43,249 nucleotides of DNA from Paracoccaceae bacterium (GTDB lineage: Bacteria; Pseudomonadota; Alphaproteobacteria; Rhodobacterales; Rhodobacteraceae): positions 1 through 43,249 of the forward strand of contig SBGD01000013.1 of assembly GCA_006226775.1 (NCBI GenBank). Reading direction: 5' to 3'. Both the position numbers and the translations under genes were made by a program. The notes below the pieces were generated by a model that was given only the letters and a program-made list of their open reading frames with translations, did no database searches and was not told where the DNA came from. Shown here piece by piece: positions 36,745 through 43,249 of the stretch; position 1 is the first letter of the stretch; the number at the start of each line of letters is the position of its first letter.

Positions 36745-37494
36745 TCAATCCGCAAGCTGGTCGGCAAAGCGCAGGAGATAGGTGTCGCAGATGGTGATGC
36801 GGCGCCCGTTGCGCGACCAGAAGGACGAGCCGGAGCAGGGTTTGACCGTCAGGGTGACGCGCGAATGCCAGTCGATGCCCGAGAGCAGCGCATAGGCCTC
36901 GTCCAGCGCGCCGCTCTCGGTCAGCGCCCGCGCGATCGGCGTTTCTTCCAGGTCGACCCCGGCCTCGGTGACGCGCGCCCCGGCGGGCATCCGGTAGTCG
37001 TCGATGATCCGACGCCAGCTGCGGCCCGCCTCGGTGGCGAAATCCCGGCAGTTGCCCGCTGCATCGCCGTCCAGCCCGAAGCGCCGGGCCATGGCGTCGA
37101 AGCGCTCGGGGTCCTGGCCGTAGAGCAGGCAGATCGAGCGGCCCGCGCGCTGATCGTCGCTGCGGTATTCGCTGAACATCCCGGGCCGATCGCCGTCCGC
37201 CATGTGCTGGCGCGCGCGGGCCGAGATGATGGCTTCGGCCCGGTCGGGCAGGGTGAGATAGACATAGATGGTGGCGAAATCGTCGGCGATATCCTCTTCC
37301 GGTCCGAGGATGGGAATGTCGAACTCCCGCAGGAAGGCATGGCCCATCTCATGCGCCACCACATGCAGGAAGGCATCGGTGCTGGCCGCGGGCAGATCGG
37401 CCGCGGATTGCGCGGAAACCGGCCCGCCGAACAGGCCCAGCCCGCCCGCGAGCACCGGCGCAAGCCAGCGGAACGGTCTCGGATCACGTGTCAT
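36745..37494 (-). CDS. Secreted DUF4344-type putative metallopeptidase
   Basis: A 249-residue exported protein with signal peptide (cleavage near VSA, residue 28). A zincin HEMGH motif lies at about 48-52, followed by LGPEEDIADDFAT (about 63-75), where the third zinc ligand is expected; this arrangement is typical of DUF4344. Cysteines in the second half (SICLLYG, NCRDFA, KPCSGSS, TICDTY) could form disulfides. It starts 42 bases after the HlyD-type gene on the same strand and could be the distal member of that secretion operon, perhaps acting on the exported product, though this is inference. Confidence 0.82.
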   Translation of the reverse strand: MTRDPRPFRWLAPVLAGGLGLFGGPVSAQSAADLPAASTDAFLHVVAHEMGHAFLREFDIPILGPEEDIADDFATIYVYLTLPDRAEAIISARARQHMADGDRPGMFSEYRSDDQRAGRSICLLYGQDPERFDAMARRFGLDGDAAGNCRDFATEAGRSWRRIIDDYRMPAGARVTEAGVDLEETPIARALTESGALDEAYALLSGIDWHSRVTLTVKPCSGSSFWSRNGRRITICDTYLLRFADQLAD

Positions 37495-37536
37495 CTTGAT
37501 ACCTCGGGGGATGTGGCGCGCGCCGGGACGGCGGGC

Positions 37537-38856
37537 TCAGGTGTCACGGAAGGCGCGGTCAAAGTAATACTTGATCGGTCGCAGGACGTATTTGATCGCG
37601 GTCTGGCTTTCGGTGGCCATGAAGGCCTCGACCGGCATCCCGGGGAGCAGCTTGCGCCCCTCCAGCTTGGCCAGTTCGTTCTCCAGCAACAGCACCTTGA
37701 CGTCGTAATAGAAGCCCTTGGTCACCGGGTCCTGGAGCGCATCCGCCGAGATGCGCGCCACGTCGCCAAGGATGATCGGCAGTTCGCGCTGGCCGAAGGC
37801 CTTGAACTTGATCGAGGCCGATTGGCCGATGTGCACCTGGTCGATATCGGCGGCCTCGATCTTGACCGCGACCTGGATCGGGTCGCTGTCGGGCACGATC
37901 ATCATCAGCGGTTTGGCCGCCACCACCACCGAGCGTTCGCCGAAGACCGCCGACTGGTGAATGGTGCCGCTGACCGGCGCGCGGATTTCCAGCTTGCTCA
38001 GGCTGTCGGTGATCTGCAGCCGCTTTTCCATGTGGCGCGTGCGCAGCGGGCGCAGCTTGCTCAGCGCCTCCTCGGCCTTTTCCTGGGCCGTGGGGATGAC
38101 GGCAAGGCGCTTGAGGTTCAACTCCGAGATCTTGCCGCGCAATTCGGCGATCTTGGCCTCGAGACTGCCGATCTGGCCGCGCGCGGTCACGTCGTCGCGG
38201 CGCAGGGCATAGAGCGTCGAGGACTTGATCAGCTTGCTCTTGGCCAGCGCCTCGGCATTTTCCAGCTCGACCGCCAGAAGCGCCAGTTCGTCGTGCTTGG
38301 CGGCGATCTGGGCCGAGACCCCGACGATCTCGGCGCGGGTCTGCACGATCTGCTCGTCCAGCAGGTCCATGCCCGATTGCACCGCCTTGAAATGCGCCTC
38401 GAGCTGCTCTTTCTGGCGGTCGATCAGGCGGCGCAGGTCGGGGCGCTCCGCCGAGGCCTCGATCAGCAGCGGATGCAGGTCGAGGGCCTCGCGGTTGTCG
38501 ATCATGGCTTCCAGCCGGGCGATATTGGCCAGCGTCTCGAACAGGTCGCTTTCGGTGACGTTGAGATCGGAGCGCAACTGCCGGCTGTCCAGCCGCACCA
38601 GCACCTGGCCGGCCTTCACCCGGTCGCCGTTGACGGCATGGATCTCGTCGACCACGCCGCCGATCGGGTGCTGGACGGCGGTCATGGTGGTGGATACCTC
38701 GATCGCGCCCTTGCCGATCACCGCGCCGTTGATATTGGCCTGCGTCGACCAATAGGCGAGGCCCCCGATGGCCAGGATCAGCGTGACCACGACGATGGAA
38801 AAGGCCCGCGCCGTCGTCCAGGTCCTGCGGTTCTTGCGGTGGCTGACGTCGGTCAT
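37537..38856 (-). CDS. HlyD/PrtE-type type I secretion membrane-fusion protein
   Basis: The 439-residue periplasmic adaptor of a type I secretion system. A short cytoplasmic tail is followed by one membrane anchor (about 19-37). Next come the first lipoyl half (VVDEIHAVNGDRVKAGQVLVRL, in overlapping pieces, about 69-90), a long coiled coil (about 95-270), the second lipoyl half (LEIRAPVSGTIHQS) and a beta-barrel end. It begins two bases after the ABC protein stop. It would bridge the inner-membrane ABC protein to an outer-membrane TolC-like channel, which is not in the window. Confidence 0.92.
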   Translation of the reverse strand: MTDVSHRKNRRTWTTARAFSIVVVTLILAIGGLAYWSTQANINGAVIGKGAIEVSTTMTAVQHPIGGVVDEIHAVNGDRVKAGQVLVRLDSRQLRSDLNVTESDLFETLANIARLEAMIDNREALDLHPLLIEASAERPDLRRLIDRQKEQLEAHFKAVQSGMDLLDEQIVQTRAEIVGVSAQIAAKHDELALLAVELENAEALAKSKLIKSSTLYALRRDDVTARGQIGSLEAKIAELRGKISELNLKRLAVIPTAQEKAEEALSKLRPLRTRHMEKRLQITDSLSKLEIRAPVSGTIHQSAVFGERSVVVAAKPLMMIVPDSDPIQVAVKIEAADIDQVHIGQSASIKFKAFGQRELPIILGDVARISADALQDPVTKGFYYDVKVLLLENELAKLEGRKLLPGMPVEAFMATESQTAIKYVLRPIKYYFDRAFRDT

Positions 38857-38858
38857 GG

Positions 38859-40652
38859 TTACCGCCTCGCGACCTTCCTGGTATCCGCCTCATCCGAGGA
38901 GCGCACCACCGAGACATGCGGGCGTTTCTCGGCCGTTGCGGCGACCTGTTCCTTGTCGGCCAGCTTGCGGTTCTGGTTGGACGAGGCCACCGATGTGCGC
39001 ATTTCGATCAGCTTGCCGTCCTTGAGCTCGAAACGCCGGTCGACATAGTCGAGGTTCAAGGTATCGCGCGCGGTCAGAAGGATGGTGGTGCCCGCCTCCT
39101 TCAGCGCGGTCAGCGTCTGCTTCAGCTTTCTGGGGATGCGCACCAGCATGTCGGAATCCAGCTGGTCGATCAGCAGGATCTGCGGCTCGTGATAGAAGGC
39201 GCGCGCCAGGCTGAGCTGGTAACGCTCGAACATCGACAGGCAGGTGCCGCGCGGGTCGATCACGGTCTTGAACCCGTCGGGCAGCGAGGTGATCGCCGCG
39301 TGCATCCGTGCCCGGCGCGCCGCCAGCCCCACCGCTTCGGGATCGGGGTTGAGCTCGAAACCCGAGATATTCTCTTCGATGGTGCCGGCGACAAAGCCCG
39401 GCGCTTCCGGCGCATAGCCGAAGATCCGCTGCGCCTCGGTATCGGTCAGCCGTTTGGTGTGCCGCCCGTTGACGAGGACTGATCCGACGTTCTGCTCCCA
39501 CATGCCGAGGATGGTTTCCAGCAGGACGGTCTTGCCTTGGCTCGACAATCCGTTGATCTCGATGATCTCGCCGGCATTGGCGTTCAGCGACACCGATCTG
39601 AGGATCATCTCGTTGGTGATCGGTGACCGCACCGAGACGTTCTGCAGCACCAGCCGGTGCTGGGATCCGGGCTGTTCGGCATAATCGTCTTCCAGTTCGG
39701 CGGCGCGGTTGGCGAGGATCCGGTTGAGCTTTTTCCAGTGCTGGCGCGCCTCGAACATCCGCGGGATCTGGACGAAGAACCGGTCGACTGGCCCGAGAAT
39801 GCGGGTCACCAGGAAGGTCGCGGCCACCATGGCGCCCACGGTCAGCGCGCCTTGCAGCGTCAGGTAGGCGCCGGTGGCCAGCACCAGGTAACGCACCACC
39901 ATGGCGGCGGTCCGTGACAGGGTCTCGAACCAGGCGGTCCAGTCCCGCAGCGCGATGGACTCGTCGCGCGCCTGGTTGCGCGCGCCCTGCCAGCGCGGGT
40001 GATAGCCGACGCCCATGTCCTGCGAGCGGACCGTATCGCGCGAGGCGATCAGCACGTTCTTCAACTGGTTGACCGAGGAGCTCGCCGCCTGCGCGCGTTC
40101 GCGCCGCCCGCCCATGAAGACCGCCTGGATCAGCGCCAGAAGCGCGATCACCCCGATGCCGCCGACACAGGCCCAGCCCAGCAGCGGATGGAGAAAGAAC
40201 ACCACGGCGATGAACATCGGCGCCCAGATGAAGTCGAAGACCGCGATCAGCGTGCCGGAATGAAAGAACCCGCGCAGGCCATCGACCTCGTCGAGCCCGA
40301 CGGCGGGTTTCGCCTTGTTGTGCTGGAAGACGTGGTTGCGCCCGGAATGCGTGATCAGCGTCTGTTCCATCTGTTCCTGGAACTGCGCCCCGAAACGCGC
40401 CAGAAGCCGTTTGCGCGCGTAATCCAGCACGCCCATGACCAGCAGCAACCCGATCACCAGAACCAGCAGCGCGACCAGGGTTTCGACCGACCGCGACGAC
40501 AGCACCCGGTCGTAGATCAGGATCATGAAGAACGGCCCGACCAGCCGCAGGACATTGACCAGAAAGCTGAGCGTGAAGGCGGAGGTCAGAATGAGCCCGC
40601 CTTTTCGGACTGCCGTTCGCGCGGAACCTCGAAGTGCCTTGGCTGAATTCAC
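38859..40652 (-). CDS. Type I secretion ABC protein with degenerate nucleotide-binding domain
   Basis: A PrtD/LapB-type fused permease-ATPase of 597 residues. The membrane domain covers about 20-310 with some six segments. The nucleotide-binding domain follows at about 323-535. Walker A survives as GLSSQGKT (368-375) and the Walker B Asp as D496. The Q-loop Gln is Glu (APEAP, 416), the LSGGQ signature is LSMFE (472-476), the catalytic Glu after Walker B is Gln497 and the switch His position reads Ala (LLTARD, 528). ATP may bind but hydrolysis should be poor. The start is GTG at 40652 with AAAGGA upstream. The frame is intact, so it is not a simple pseudogene. Co-transcribed with the HlyD gene. 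Confidence 0.88.
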   Translation of the reverse strand: MNSAKALRGSARTAVRKGGLILTSAFTLSFLVNVLRLVGPFFMILIYDRVLSSRSVETLVALLVLVIGLLLVMGVLDYARKRLLARFGAQFQEQMEQTLITHSGRNHVFQHNKAKPAVGLDEVDGLRGFFHSGTLIAVFDFIWAPMFIAVVFFLHPLLGWACVGGIGVIALLALIQAVFMGGRRERAQAASSSVNQLKNVLIASRDTVRSQDMGVGYHPRWQGARNQARDESIALRDWTAWFETLSRTAAMVVRYLVLATGAYLTLQGALTVGAMVAATFLVTRILGPVDRFFVQIPRMFEARQHWKKLNRILANRAAELEDDYAEQPGSQHRLVLQNVSVRSPITNEMILRSVSLNANAGEIIEINGLSSQGKTVLLETILGMWEQNVGSVLVNGRHTKRLTDTEAQRIFGYAPEAPGFVAGTIEENISGFELNPDPEAVGLAARRARMHAAITSLPDGFKTVIDPRGTCLSMFERYQLSLARAFYHEPQILLIDQLDSDMLVRIPRKLKQTLTALKEAGTTILLTARDTLNLDYVDRRFELKDGKLIEMRTSVASSNQNRKLADKEQVAATAEKRPHVSVVRSSDEADTRKVARR

Positions 40653-40779
40653 CGATCAATGTCCTTTCGCTTTTGGCGCGGACCGCCTGAGGGCCGAAAT
40701 CGGGCCCCTGTCCGGAAGGCGCGATCCCGGGCGCCGGAGGGCGCCGAGGATGCAGTTCCTGGGGACGTCTGCAAACGTC

Positions 40780-41439
40780 CTATTTCTTCTTCGCCGGCTT
40801 TTTCACCTGGTTGAGATTGAAGCTGATGATGATCCTGTTGGCGGCATTGCCCTCTTCCTCGGACAGGTTCGGATCGACGGCGTGATAAAGCCAGCTCGGG
40901 AAAATGAGCATCCGCCCCGCGACCGGCGTGAACCGGACCTTCGTCCAGCATTCCTTGGGCCGCTTCTTGTTGGGCATATACTTTGCCTGGTTCATCAAAT
41001 GCATGGTCCGCGGTTCAATGAACTCGATGTTACCACAATTTTCGGGCGCTTGGATATAGTAGACTCCGCTCCACAGGCAGCCGGGATGCACATGCGCCCG
41101 GTTCACGCCGCCCGGCGGGTTGATGATCGACCACATGGTGCCGATCTTGATCTCGTGGGAATCGGCGTAGCCGAGGTTTTGCGACAGCTTGGCCGTGGCC
41201 TGGCCGATCTTGCCCACAAGCTCGGCGTAATCCTTGGACTTGTGCAGGTCGTTGTGGCTGTGCCAGCCGCCCAGGGCGGGAATGTTTGAGCGGCTGATGC
41301 CCTTCTGGTCGCGAATGCGTTCGGAATAAATTTTTTCGGTAAGGTCCTTGTTCAGATCTTCGGGGTTTTCCAGATCGATCTGAAACACCATCGTGGGGAA
41401 GTACGTTCGCCGAACGAAGGTGAAGTCGTCCTTGCTCAT
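40780..41439 (-). CDS. TIGR02466-like putative 2-oxoglutarate-Fe(II) oxygenase
   Basis: A 219-residue protein with a double-stranded beta-helix pattern like the TIGR02466 family. Likely iron ligands are H116 and H118 (NRAHVHPGCLWSGVYY) and H186 (FPSWLYHAVDP). R202 in NRIIISFN is placed to bind 2-oxoglutarate. It ends in a basic tail (KKPAKKK). The ATG at 41439 has GAGAG upstream. It is first of the minus-strand group with the secretion genes and divergent from the M3-like peptidase. A plausible substrate is the Asp/Asn-rich repeat protein encoded 1.3 kb away, but no direct evidence exists in sequence. Confidence 0.82.
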   Translation of the reverse strand: MSKDDFTFVRRTYFPTMVFQIDLENPEDLNKDLTEKIYSERIRDQKGISRSNIPALGGWHSHNDLHKSKDYAELVGKIGQATAKLSQNLGYADSHEIKIGTMWSIINPPGGVNRAHVHPGCLWSGVYYIQAPENCGNIEFIEPRTMHLMNQAKYMPNKKRPKECWTKVRFTPVAGRMLIFPSWLYHAVDPNLSEEEGNAANRIIISFNLNQVKKPAKKK

Positions 41440-41606
41440 TCTTTCACTCTCTTGCTTTTCAATAATGCGTTTTGCTAAGGGTGGTCCGGCCCACCGATCC
41501 CGACAGTAACAGAGAATGCCATGCAGCCAAACATCTTGTTCAAGCTGGCATTTGATGCAGCTTATGATGGTATGCCGGCCTGCCGCCTCCGAAGGCGCCC
41601 CGGACG

Positions 41607-42347
41607 GTGCGAGGCGCGGATCTGACCCGTGACACGCCCCCCACGATGCAGGACTGGCTCGATCTTCACGGGCTGACGGCGCAGGGCTGCGCGGATCTGG
41701 TCTCCCATGCTCCGCCGATTGTGGAAGTGGCGACGGTTGCGGCCCCCGCAAGCTGGCCCGAGGGCGCGCGTCTCTGGGCGCTGGCCGCCGCGGCGCTGAG
41801 CGCGCACCTCCCCGATCTCGCGGAAGACATTGCGCATACCGCGGCGCGCACCGTGGTGAATTTCGCCCCGGATCCGGCCCGCCACCCGCGGCCCTTCACC
41901 GTCCGTCTCGCGGAAAAACGCATGGTCTATGCCTCCTGCCCGCTCTCGCAGGGCGCCGGAGACCCGATCCTGGTGGCGCATGAATTCGGACACGCCCTGC
42001 AGTTGCACCTCGTGGCGGACCGCGGCGTGCCGCCGATCCTGCGCGAAACCTGTGCCTTCCTGGCGGAGGAGGTGCTGCTGCGCGAGCTGCCCGGTCTGGC
42101 AGGCGACTATGCTGATGCGGTCGCGGCCAGGCTGGCCCGAGCGCGCATCCGCGACTTCGGACGCCTGCGCGAAACCCTGGTCGAAGCGCTGCGCGATCCT
42201 GCGGCGCGCTATAAATATGACTGGAATTATCCGCCCGCCCGCCGCCTTGCCCTCGGCCTGTGCCGGCACCCGGATACCGACGCCGCGATGGCGCTGTTTC
42301 ACGGCCGGATCACCCTGGGAAAACTGCGCGAAATCCTGCGCCTATAA
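41607..42347 (+). CDS. Small stand-alone M3-like zinc peptidase
   Basis: A 246-residue protein consisting of little more than a catalytic domain. HEFGHALQLHL (HExxH at about 125-129) is followed by PPILRETCAFLAEEVLL, where E147 is the likely third zinc ligand, in the pattern of oligoendopeptidase F/M3 enzymes. Those are usually about 600 residues, so this is a compact version and not an obvious truncation. No signal peptide is seen, so it should act in the cytoplasm. The start is GTG at 41607 or ATG at 41646; neither has a strong ribosome site. It precedes the repeat-protein gene on the same strand. Confidence 0.78.
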   Translation: MRGADLTRDTPPTMQDWLDLHGLTAQGCADLVSHAPPIVEVATVAAPASWPEGARLWALAAAALSAHLPDLAEDIAHTAARTVVNFAPDPARHPRPFTVRLAEKRMVYASCPLSQGAGDPILVAHEFGHALQLHLVADRGVPPILRETCAFLAEEVLLRELPGLAGDYADAVAARLARARIRDFGRLRETLVEALRDPAARYKYDWNYPPARRLALGLCRHPDTDAAMALFHGRITLGKLREILRL

Positions 42348-42748
42348 GCTGATCATGCAATCGCAGCAATAGCTTGCGGCATCGCGGCATCCGCGCGCCC
42401 CTGGCGGCCTGCGTTTCGCCGCCGCTGAGGCAATCCGTCCCATGGCATCCGGAAATCGACACCAGATTAACGTTGACAGGAAGCTGATTCGCAAAGAAAG
42501 TTGAGTCAGATCTGCATTTTCCGGGACCGTGGCGTCTTAGACACTTCACTTTGGTCCGCACCCCATTCGGCGTCCAACCGACATGATCGGTGTGCATTGA
42601 AAATGCCATTTTGATAATGTCATCCATTTTTTCGAAACACCGGACTTCCGCACGACGGACCACAGCATCATCCCATATTCGGCCTGCGCCGCAGGCTTCA
42701 TGCATCCTTTCTCGCACGAGAAGCTGCTCATAACCCTGGAGAACTCCC
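42348..42748. other. Leader region of the acidic repeat protein gene
   Basis: About 400 bases without a convincing gene, AT-richer than the surroundings. It contains TTGACA (about 42473) and a GATAAT box (42613-42618), but no pair with ideal spacing, so the promoter is not assigned. GGAGA (42738-42742) is a good ribosome site for the next gene. The long leader suggests separate regulation from the peptidase gene. Confidence 0.45.
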
Positions 42749-43249
42749 ATGACCGCCATCATCGCCACCCCCGCCCTGAACACCATTGCTCTGACCGACG
42801 AGCTGATCGCCCTGATCGACGACGCGCTGGCGGCGCAGGACCTGGCGACCGCGCTGAGCTTTGCCCCGGATCTCTACGACGGTGACGAGGGCAACGAAGG
42901 CGACGAATGGAACGAGGGCAACGAAGGCGACGAGGACGACGAAGGCGACGAGGGCGACGAAGGCAACGAGGAAAACGAAGGCAACGAAGGCGACGAAGGC
43001 AACGAAGGCGACGAAGACAACGAGCCCACCGACGGCAATGAAGGCGACGAGGGCAACGAAGGAAACGAGGGCAACGAGGGCAACGAAGACAACGAAGGCA
43101 ACGAAGGCGACGAGGACAACGAAGGCGACGAAGGCTTCGAGGGCGACGAGGACGACGAAGGCAACGAAGGCGACGAAGGCGACGAGGGCGACGAATACGA
43201 CGAGGGTGACGAAGGCGACGAACACGACGAGGACGACGAAGGCAACGAA
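42749..43249 (+). CDS. Acidic Gly-(Asp/Asn)-Glu triplet-repeat protein, 3' end beyond window
   Basis: The frame opens with ATG at 42749 (GGAGA six bases upstream) and is still open after 167 codons at the window edge. Residues 1-44 are ordinary and helix-prone (LTDELIALIDDALAAQDLATAL) with no Sec signal and no double-Gly leader motif. From residue 45 there are 41 unbroken triplets, mostly GDE or GNE. Position 1 is occasionally W, D, E, Y, H or P, position 2 once F, and one triplet reads PTD. There is no Lys, Arg or Cys in the repeat. With the type I exporter, the oxygenase and the peptidase adjacent, I infer an exported and possibly modified polymer. Low-complexity spacer or calcium/metal-binding protein are alternatives. 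Confidence 0.85.
   Translation, partial: MTAIIATPALNTIALTDELIALIDDALAAQDLATALSFAPDLYDGDEGNEGDEWNEGNEGDEDDEGDEGDEGNEENEGNEGDEGNEGDEDNEPTDGNEGDEGNEGNEGNEGNEDNEGNEGDEDNEGDEGFEGDEDDEGNEGDEGDEGDEYDEGDEGDEHDEDDEGNE
42881..43249 (+). repeat. Imperfect 9-bp tandem repeat, coding for G-D/N-E
   Basis: The unit is GGC(A/G)ACGA(A/G), repeated 41 times to the window edge with scattered substitutions and no frame break. Asp and Asn codons differ by one base (GAC/AAC), and both GAA and GAG are used for Glu. Confidence 0.95.

Follow-up and report, generated by a model that had tools for sequence, protein, structure and literature searches.

The stretch of DNA analyzed here (hereafter, the window) comprises 43,249 nucleotides and is one entire contig (C103; SBGD01000013.1) of the genome of a marine Paracoccaceae bacterium (GCA_006226775.1). 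Its end, between positions 36745 and 43249, carries six genes for which an initial annotation had proposed a ribosomally made, modified, and exported product: a leader-bearing repeat protein, a minimal M3-like zinc peptidase, a TIGR02466-like 2-oxoglutarate (2OG)-Fe(II) oxygenase, an ATP-binding cassette (ABC) protein, an HlyD adaptor, and a DUF4344 protein. The positions and strands of all six, as well as their arrangement in two divergent units, were confirmed (cf. Table 1). The minus-strand unit runs in the order oxygenase, ABC, HlyD, DUF4344, with spacings of 127, 2, and 42 bases (stop codons counted in), while the plus-strand unit holds the M3-like and repeat genes, and 167 bases separate the two units. 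Since the window ends with the contig, the repeat open reading frame (ORF) is truncated at residue 167. Its continuation on another contig was considered and rejected, since just one further repeat gene was detected in the genome, and it is separate, complete, and unlinked to the cluster (L013:1589-2908, G000:C4). This gene has 439 codons, its encoded leader resembles that of the window and ends in LLAPLSF, and the protein is likely a substrate in trans.

Table 1. Features of the oxygenase–repeat locus and their coordinates in the window.
Feature	Position	Strand	Basis or remark
Leader-repeat precursor, 3' part cut by contig end	42749-43249	+	x-(D/N)-E array; complete homologues exist
Precursor leader, 44 residues, ALSF at 42851-42862	42749-42880	+	
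x-(D/N)-E triplet array, running to contig end	42881-43249	+	
Minimal M3-like putative zinc peptidase, HEFGH, third-ligand candidate E147	41607-42347	+	
TIGR02466/PF13759 2OG-Fe(II)-type oxygenase, repeat-associated subfamily, H-x-H site	40780-41439	-	NCBIfam/Pfam
Type I secretion ABC protein, PrtD-like, C39 domain not found	38859-40652	-	NCBIfam/Pfam
HlyD-type periplasmic adaptor	37537-38856	-	TIGR01843
Secreted-looking DUF4344 putative metallopeptidase, system membership doubtful	36745-37494	-	PF14247

The array had been described as a G-D/N-E repeat. Its grammar was counted on triplets flanked on both sides by a [DN]E pair, so that the count was conditioned on intact neighbors and not on the counted triplet itself (L079 and L093 were omitted). 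In the arrays of the window's kind (type I, 14 loci, see below), position 2 was D or N in 2049 of 2118 triplets and position 3 was E in 2085, D occurring there in only 9, whereas position 1 was variable (G 1103, D 323, N 275, A 165, S 94, plus others). Hence, the (D/N)-E part of the description holds, while glycine is merely the commonest letter at position 1. The other locus types obeyed the same rule, with D/N at position 2 and E at position 3 in 1004 and 1017 of 1079 triplets (type II), 511 and 504 of 517 (type III), and 223 and 222 of 223 (type IV). Because charge alone would permit exchange of D and E, the pattern appears to be read by something. Two complete homologues of the window's repeat protein have 993 and 1065 residues, the former (L048) with 561 acidic residues and a single basic one; a precursor of G008 reaches 2463 residues and 708 triplets. 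A [VILF]SF motif was present in all 12 type I leaders with an assembled N-terminus, that of the orphan C4 gene included. In complete type I homologues whose ends are assembled, the protein stops 2-3 residues after the array.

Complete arrays of four relatives gave pairwise alignment scores of 205 to 380, compared with 4 to 97 in shuffled versions (8 shuffles per pair), while the window's cut array alone scored 23 to 54 against 16 to 42 in shuffles, about 1 to 4 standard deviations higher. As judged from these alignments, complete arrays are homologous through their interruptions, and D versus N is nearly free between orthologues; a conserved code in the D/N order was rejected, since position-2 identity among the four relatives was 0.67-0.74 against 0.63-0.67 in aligned shuffles. 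With leader and grammar common to other species and complete arrays far above shuffles, the repeat exceeds what chance would yield. No repeat ORF was found in 147 kb of other DNA, a weak control in which 25 of 33 loci represent one gene family.

With the oxygenase as the only query (a five-row alignment and the patterns LGGWHSHN and [RK]IGTMWSI), 84,980 species were scanned at one genome per species, and 46 loci were retrieved. An ORF counted as a repeat ORF if it contained six or more x-(D/N)-E triplets, in runs of no fewer than four; such ORFs occurred at 33 of the loci, or at 30 of 43 when the query seed loci L048, L050, and L051 were set aside. The 46 loci include near copies (L063/L090, L061/L064/L066, and L069/L073, by eye and tree), and four positives are weak, with 10 (L093), 12 (L067), 14 (L079), and 17 (L086) triplets. 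All five core genes (leader-repeat, M3-like, TIGR02466 oxygenase, PrtD-type ABC, and HlyD) were found in the window and at 12 of the 46 loci, in varying order and orientation. Since Pseudoponticoccus marisrubri (G028) holds the five on one strand in a different order, the linkage has survived rearrangement. Among 394 genomes of the family, the oxygenase subfamily (E <= 1e-60) occurred in 19, repeat matches (E <= 1e-5) in 19, and both in 11 (Fisher p = 6.3e-12; 1.4e-7 minus the four query-source genomes). The eight repeat-only genomes had one match each, with 37-61% identity, and the strongest of these (G076, E 3.1e-18), the one of the eight inspected, contained no array. Whether the genes occur independently in related genomes, which would have counted against the initial annotation, was checked in the same set: four of the five genomes with a strong M3-like match also carried the oxygenase subfamily, while the fifth, G090, has an M3-like domain beside an HlyC gene, with no oxygenase-subfamily or repeat match. 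Judged by neighborhood, then, the core genes of the six-gene region form one system, as the initial annotation held, and the oxygenase–repeat pair recurs with other maturation genes.

The oxygenase of the window matched TIGR02466 with 262.6 bits (cut-off 62.5) and PF13759 with 82.3 bits (cut-off 27), and its structure model (predicted local distance difference test [pLDDT] 84.7) showed a double-stranded beta-helix fold. In Foldseek, the model retrieved 3bvc (E 6.7e-12) and 2rg4 (E 3.2e-11), followed by alpha-ketoglutarate (alphaKG) oxygenases and prolyl hydroxylases. The usual iron site of 2OG-Fe(II) oxygenases is H-x-D/E, with a distal H; all 40 aligned oxygenases have instead H116-x-H118...H186, and R202 is likewise invariant. 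The solved relatives 2rg4 and 3bvc are also H-x-H. The 40-row alignment and tree omit 7 of the 46 named oxygenases: five that are frameshifted (L062), have a stop near the start (L077), are cut at a contig end (L091), or are partial (L092, L093), and two intact ones that were omitted needlessly (L066, L081; both retain A-H-I-H-P). On this tree, which is a quick one with 16 of 38 inner branches open and a very distant outgroup, the context groups need 4 changes compared with a shuffled mean of 21.9 (0 of 200 shuffles as low), and likewise 4 when only rows typed by neighborhood are kept. PF13759 at large occurs in 100 of 149 family genomes, and the 7-kb surroundings of the second PF13759 protein of the window's genome hold no repeat ORFs.

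The loci fall into four types. Type I consists of the window and the 12 loci with all five genes (L062 with its oxygenase frameshifted) and is characterized by the [VILF]SF leader, the M3-like protein, the PrtD-type ABC protein, and HlyD. Type II comprises 10 loci with a C39 gene, 7 of these with a radical S-adenosylmethionine (SAM) gene in range; the C39-domain protein (PF03412, 74.8 bits) has no detected ABC ATPase domain, the maturase scored 475.8 bits against TIGR04463 (cut-off 525), and also encoded are two proteins of membrane or adaptor-like character that have no family assignment. Its precursors are 625-2463 residues long, and among the 14 distinct ones with an assembled N-terminus, all have a GG leader and 13 a C-terminal CGADGG/ACGADAC core; those of G008, G281, G132, and G134 are located away from the oxygenase contig stretch. 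Several type II arrays (L065, L070, L074, L078, L084) are built of regular modules, e.g., 6 triplets plus AG or 3 triplets plus NVA/STP/ASP, a pattern that suggests an ordered structure. Type III covers nine loci typed in metagenome-assembled genomes (MAGs) of Latescibacterota, Binatia, Planctomycetota, and one Alphaproteobacteria, where the array adjoins or lies near the oxygenase and every other gene looked for is missing; some precursors (L061, L064, L066, L085) have poly-Asp runs and, by eye, signal-like N-termini. Nearly alike oxygenases were observed in MAGs of Latescibacterota, Binatota, and Gemmatimonadota (L061, L063, L064, L069, L072, L073, L076, L090), which possibly reflects either binning error or recent transfer between phyla. 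Type IV gathers the remaining loci, which are mixed and have RTX-like, type I secretion system-like, or HlyC-linked proteins; in one such locus (L086, Amylibacter marinus) an M3-like–HlyC fusion accompanies the repeat, oxygenase, ABC, and HlyD genes. Across 49 loci, M3-like genes were found in 16 (15 with repeat ORFs) and C39 genes in 10 (6 with repeat ORFs), and never together. The form of the leader tracks the peptidase, SF leaders occurring with M3-like genes and GG leaders with C39 genes.

These findings led us to favor, with a probability of roughly 0.6, the reading that the locus makes an x-(D/N)-E polyanion, modifies it by the oxygenase, trims its leader, and exports it as a cation-binding product. 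The precursor would be a giant polyanion in which a leader of some 44 residues precedes the triplet array, the latter being about 1000 residues long in relatives. The TIGR02466 enzyme would act in the cytoplasm on this array, which is its likeliest substrate because the two are the constant partners; a fixed position at which D and N alternate is what an Asp/Asn hydroxylase would be expected to use, so that beta-hydroxylation of the position-2 Asp/Asn is the most likely reaction and Glu the second choice. The M3-like peptidase would cut the leader near the [VILF]SF motif, as suggested by the way M3-like and C39 genes swap together with the leader form. From gene content we infer export through the PrtD-type ABC protein and HlyD with a presumed TolC-type outer-membrane protein, and the composition of the polymer points to cation binding, on the cell surface or outside the cell, as its most likely function.

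Several observations weigh against this picture. A repeat ORF was not found at 13 of the 46 oxygenase loci, and 8 of the 19 oxygenase-positive genomes in the 394-genome set had no repeat match. For seven of the 13 misses, the locus is next to a contig end or its contig is shorter than 9 kb (L072, L076, L080, L081, L083, L087, L091), L082 seems, by eye, to have a short array that follows a GG leader out of frame, and at L089 only a leader-like piece remains (by eye); the rest are L060, L077, L088, and L092, the oxygenase of L092 being truncated and that of L077 having the early stop. H-x-H in place of the usual iron site makes oxygenase activity less than certain, and Falsiruegeria (L062) keeps the cluster though its oxygenase is frameshifted. 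In G309 (L140), the oxygenase, repeat, ABC, and HlyD genes lie within 8 kb, with no M3-like match and a leader lacking SF, and the M3-like protein is thus not universal. Finally, a search for promoter and terminator patterns at 41300-42800 found none.

The strongest alternative is that the repeat protein leaves the cell unmodified and serves as an acidic protein of the surface or matrix, while the oxygenase acts on the leader, the exporter, or a small molecule. A polyanion by itself could bind cations, the oxygenase has the H-x-H site, and modification of the array is so far a prediction. We nevertheless regard this alternative as rather unlikely, since the strict D/N and E positions surpass what charge would require, and the oxygenase subfamily follows the array across very different leaders and export genes, which makes the array the shared candidate substrate.

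Another possibility concerns the HExxH protein, which could be an alphaKG-dependent hydroxylase of the kind acting on ribosomally synthesized and post-translationally modified peptides (RiPPs) instead of a leader peptidase. According to excerpts of PMC12636437, enzymes of this kind formerly carried metallopeptidase annotations; in RiPP precursors, their targets are Asp, His, Gln, and Asn, and they hydroxylate runs of residues. The HExxH domain of ChlB (8s5f) was indeed a weak Foldseek match of the M3-like model (rank 13, probability 0.85, E 0.11). The best matches, however, were M3 oligoendopeptidase F (probability 1.00), though only at E 1.5e-3 and with no match below 1e-3; the model (pLDDT 92.7) reached template modeling scores of 0.54-0.56 by query length with M3 oligoendopeptidases. 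Furthermore, TIGR02290 of M3 was matched by 12 of 13 members at E<=1 (best 5.6e-9) with TIGR04267 absent among the families matched, and profile comparison with hhalign gave 95.5% (E 1.5e-8) to M3 PepF versus 1.2% to five TIGR04267 proteins. The hydroxylase reading is therefore disfavored and appears improbable. The minimal zinc peptidase of M3 kind named by the initial annotation is consistent with these data and with the conservation of H125, E126, H129, and E147 in 13 of 13 members. The window protein is far from a full-length M3 enzyme, with 246 residues versus about 605 and 9.9 bits versus a curated cut-off of 561.7, and it matched no Pfam family at E<=1; an ATG 13 codons downstream may be its true start. 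In a search of 61 genomes, the M3-like protein was found in two others, both times beside repeat, oxygenase, ABC, and HlyD genes. The M3-like profile matched 249 of the 394 genomes at E <= 0.001, five of them strongly (80 to 439 bits); the remaining matches did not exceed 30.3 bits, and all 25 genomes inspected among these carry M3 PepF-like proteins with HELGH.

M3-like domains were also observed fused to an HlyC-type acyltransferase (PF02794) at L047:9009-10571 (56.7 bits) and L086:6302-8206 (61.4 bits), and in a frame overlapping one at L046:9003-10651 (93.3 bits). Each of these three genes lies near proteins with an SFGGGG motif, and small proteins sharing the motif occur at the M3-like/HlyC locus of G090; they possibly represent a separate acylated-peptide system. 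The gene following HlyC in L046 (10651-11637) has a weak Cupin_8 (JmjC-like) match under the cut-off (14.7 versus 27.4 bits) and may encode another oxygenase in an array-free system.

A bacterial collagen on which a prolyl-hydroxylase-like enzyme acts is suggested by PF01391 on the window's array (38.3 bits versus a cut-off of 27.2) and by the resemblance of the oxygenase model to prolyl hydroxylases among others. The x-(D/N)-E grammar contradicts this idea, which we reject as very improbable: Pro is nearly absent, and with Gly in just 1103 of 2118 type I triplets, and not at each third residue, the collagen label is misleading. Chance adjacency of unrelated genes is hardly credible given the linkage kept through rearrangement and the 394-genome co-occurrence, even though ABC, HlyD, and PF13759 genes are each common alone.

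Each part of the locus belongs to a known kind, and the logic of types I and II is RiPP-like. By gene content alone, the window combines a leader-bearing precursor, a linked tailoring enzyme, a leader-peptidase candidate, and an exporter, and the RiPP-like composition noted initially gains support from the sister type. With its GG leader, C39 domain, TIGR04463-like maturase, and Cys-rich C-terminal core, type II resembles the RiPP radical SAM/SPASM plus C39 systems (TIGR04463), but its very long precursors are dominated by x-(D/N)-E and accompanied by the TIGR02466 oxygenase, and the window's type has neither a C39 nor a radical SAM gene. Both genes of type I secretion (PrtD/HlyD) are present in the window, where TIGR01842 PrtD is the best NCBIfam model for the ABC protein (354.9 bits, below the cut-off of 510; Pfam domains ABC_tran and ABC_membrane) and HlyD scored 321 bits against TIGR01843, above the cut-off; unlike typical substrates of that route, the precursor has an N-terminal leader, carries no RTX repeats, and stops right after the array. 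The pairing of a 2OG oxygenase with a long triplet-repeat protein recalls collagen and prolyl 4-hydroxylase in outline only, the oxygenase family being another one. The Asp/Asn beta-hydroxylases AspH and FIH act on Asp as well as Asn, a breadth that the D/N alternation of the array suggests for our enzyme too, but, as commonly described, they belong to other families and have other substrates. The alphaKG-HExxH hydroxylases (TIGR04267), in the excerpts of PMC12636437, share the placement of an HExxH protein beside a repeat-bearing precursor, but the M3-like protein fails their profile. The DUF4344 protein matched PF14247 (88.7 bits, above the cut-off) and has an N-terminus that looks signal-like by eye only. 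Its gene is thus present as annotated, but its place in the system is doubtful, since it is loosely linked (3 of 49 loci); a different secreted-looking family occurs in 22 of the 49, one of them weak. Altogether, the initial interpretation is partly supported.

Beyond this locus, we lean, by a narrower measure, toward the view that a dedicated TIGR02466 subfamily found in several phyla hydroxylates ribosomal x-(D/N)-E polymers, the oxygenase and polymer forming a core to which interchangeable leader and export modules (M3-like/ABC/HlyD, C39/radical SAM, Sec-like, RTX-like) are added. No matching description of the oxygenase–polymer pair was present among the matches listed from the open-licence literature, where at most four papers name the oxygenase family; a likely substrate can now be proposed for it. 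Automatic annotation will probably label the arrays collagen-like and thereby hide them. If this view is true, polymers up to hundreds of triplets long would constitute an undescribed class of modified biopolymer, and leader-guided maturation would reach beyond short peptides to include proteins of about 1000-2500 residues. Siderophores bind iron through the beta-hydroxy-Asp/Asn group, according to an excerpt of PMC7100376. Should the D/N sites be hydroxylated, these bacteria would make a genetically encoded polymer with a high density of beta-hydroxy-Asp/Asn, which might function in metal binding, biofilm, or mineral control.

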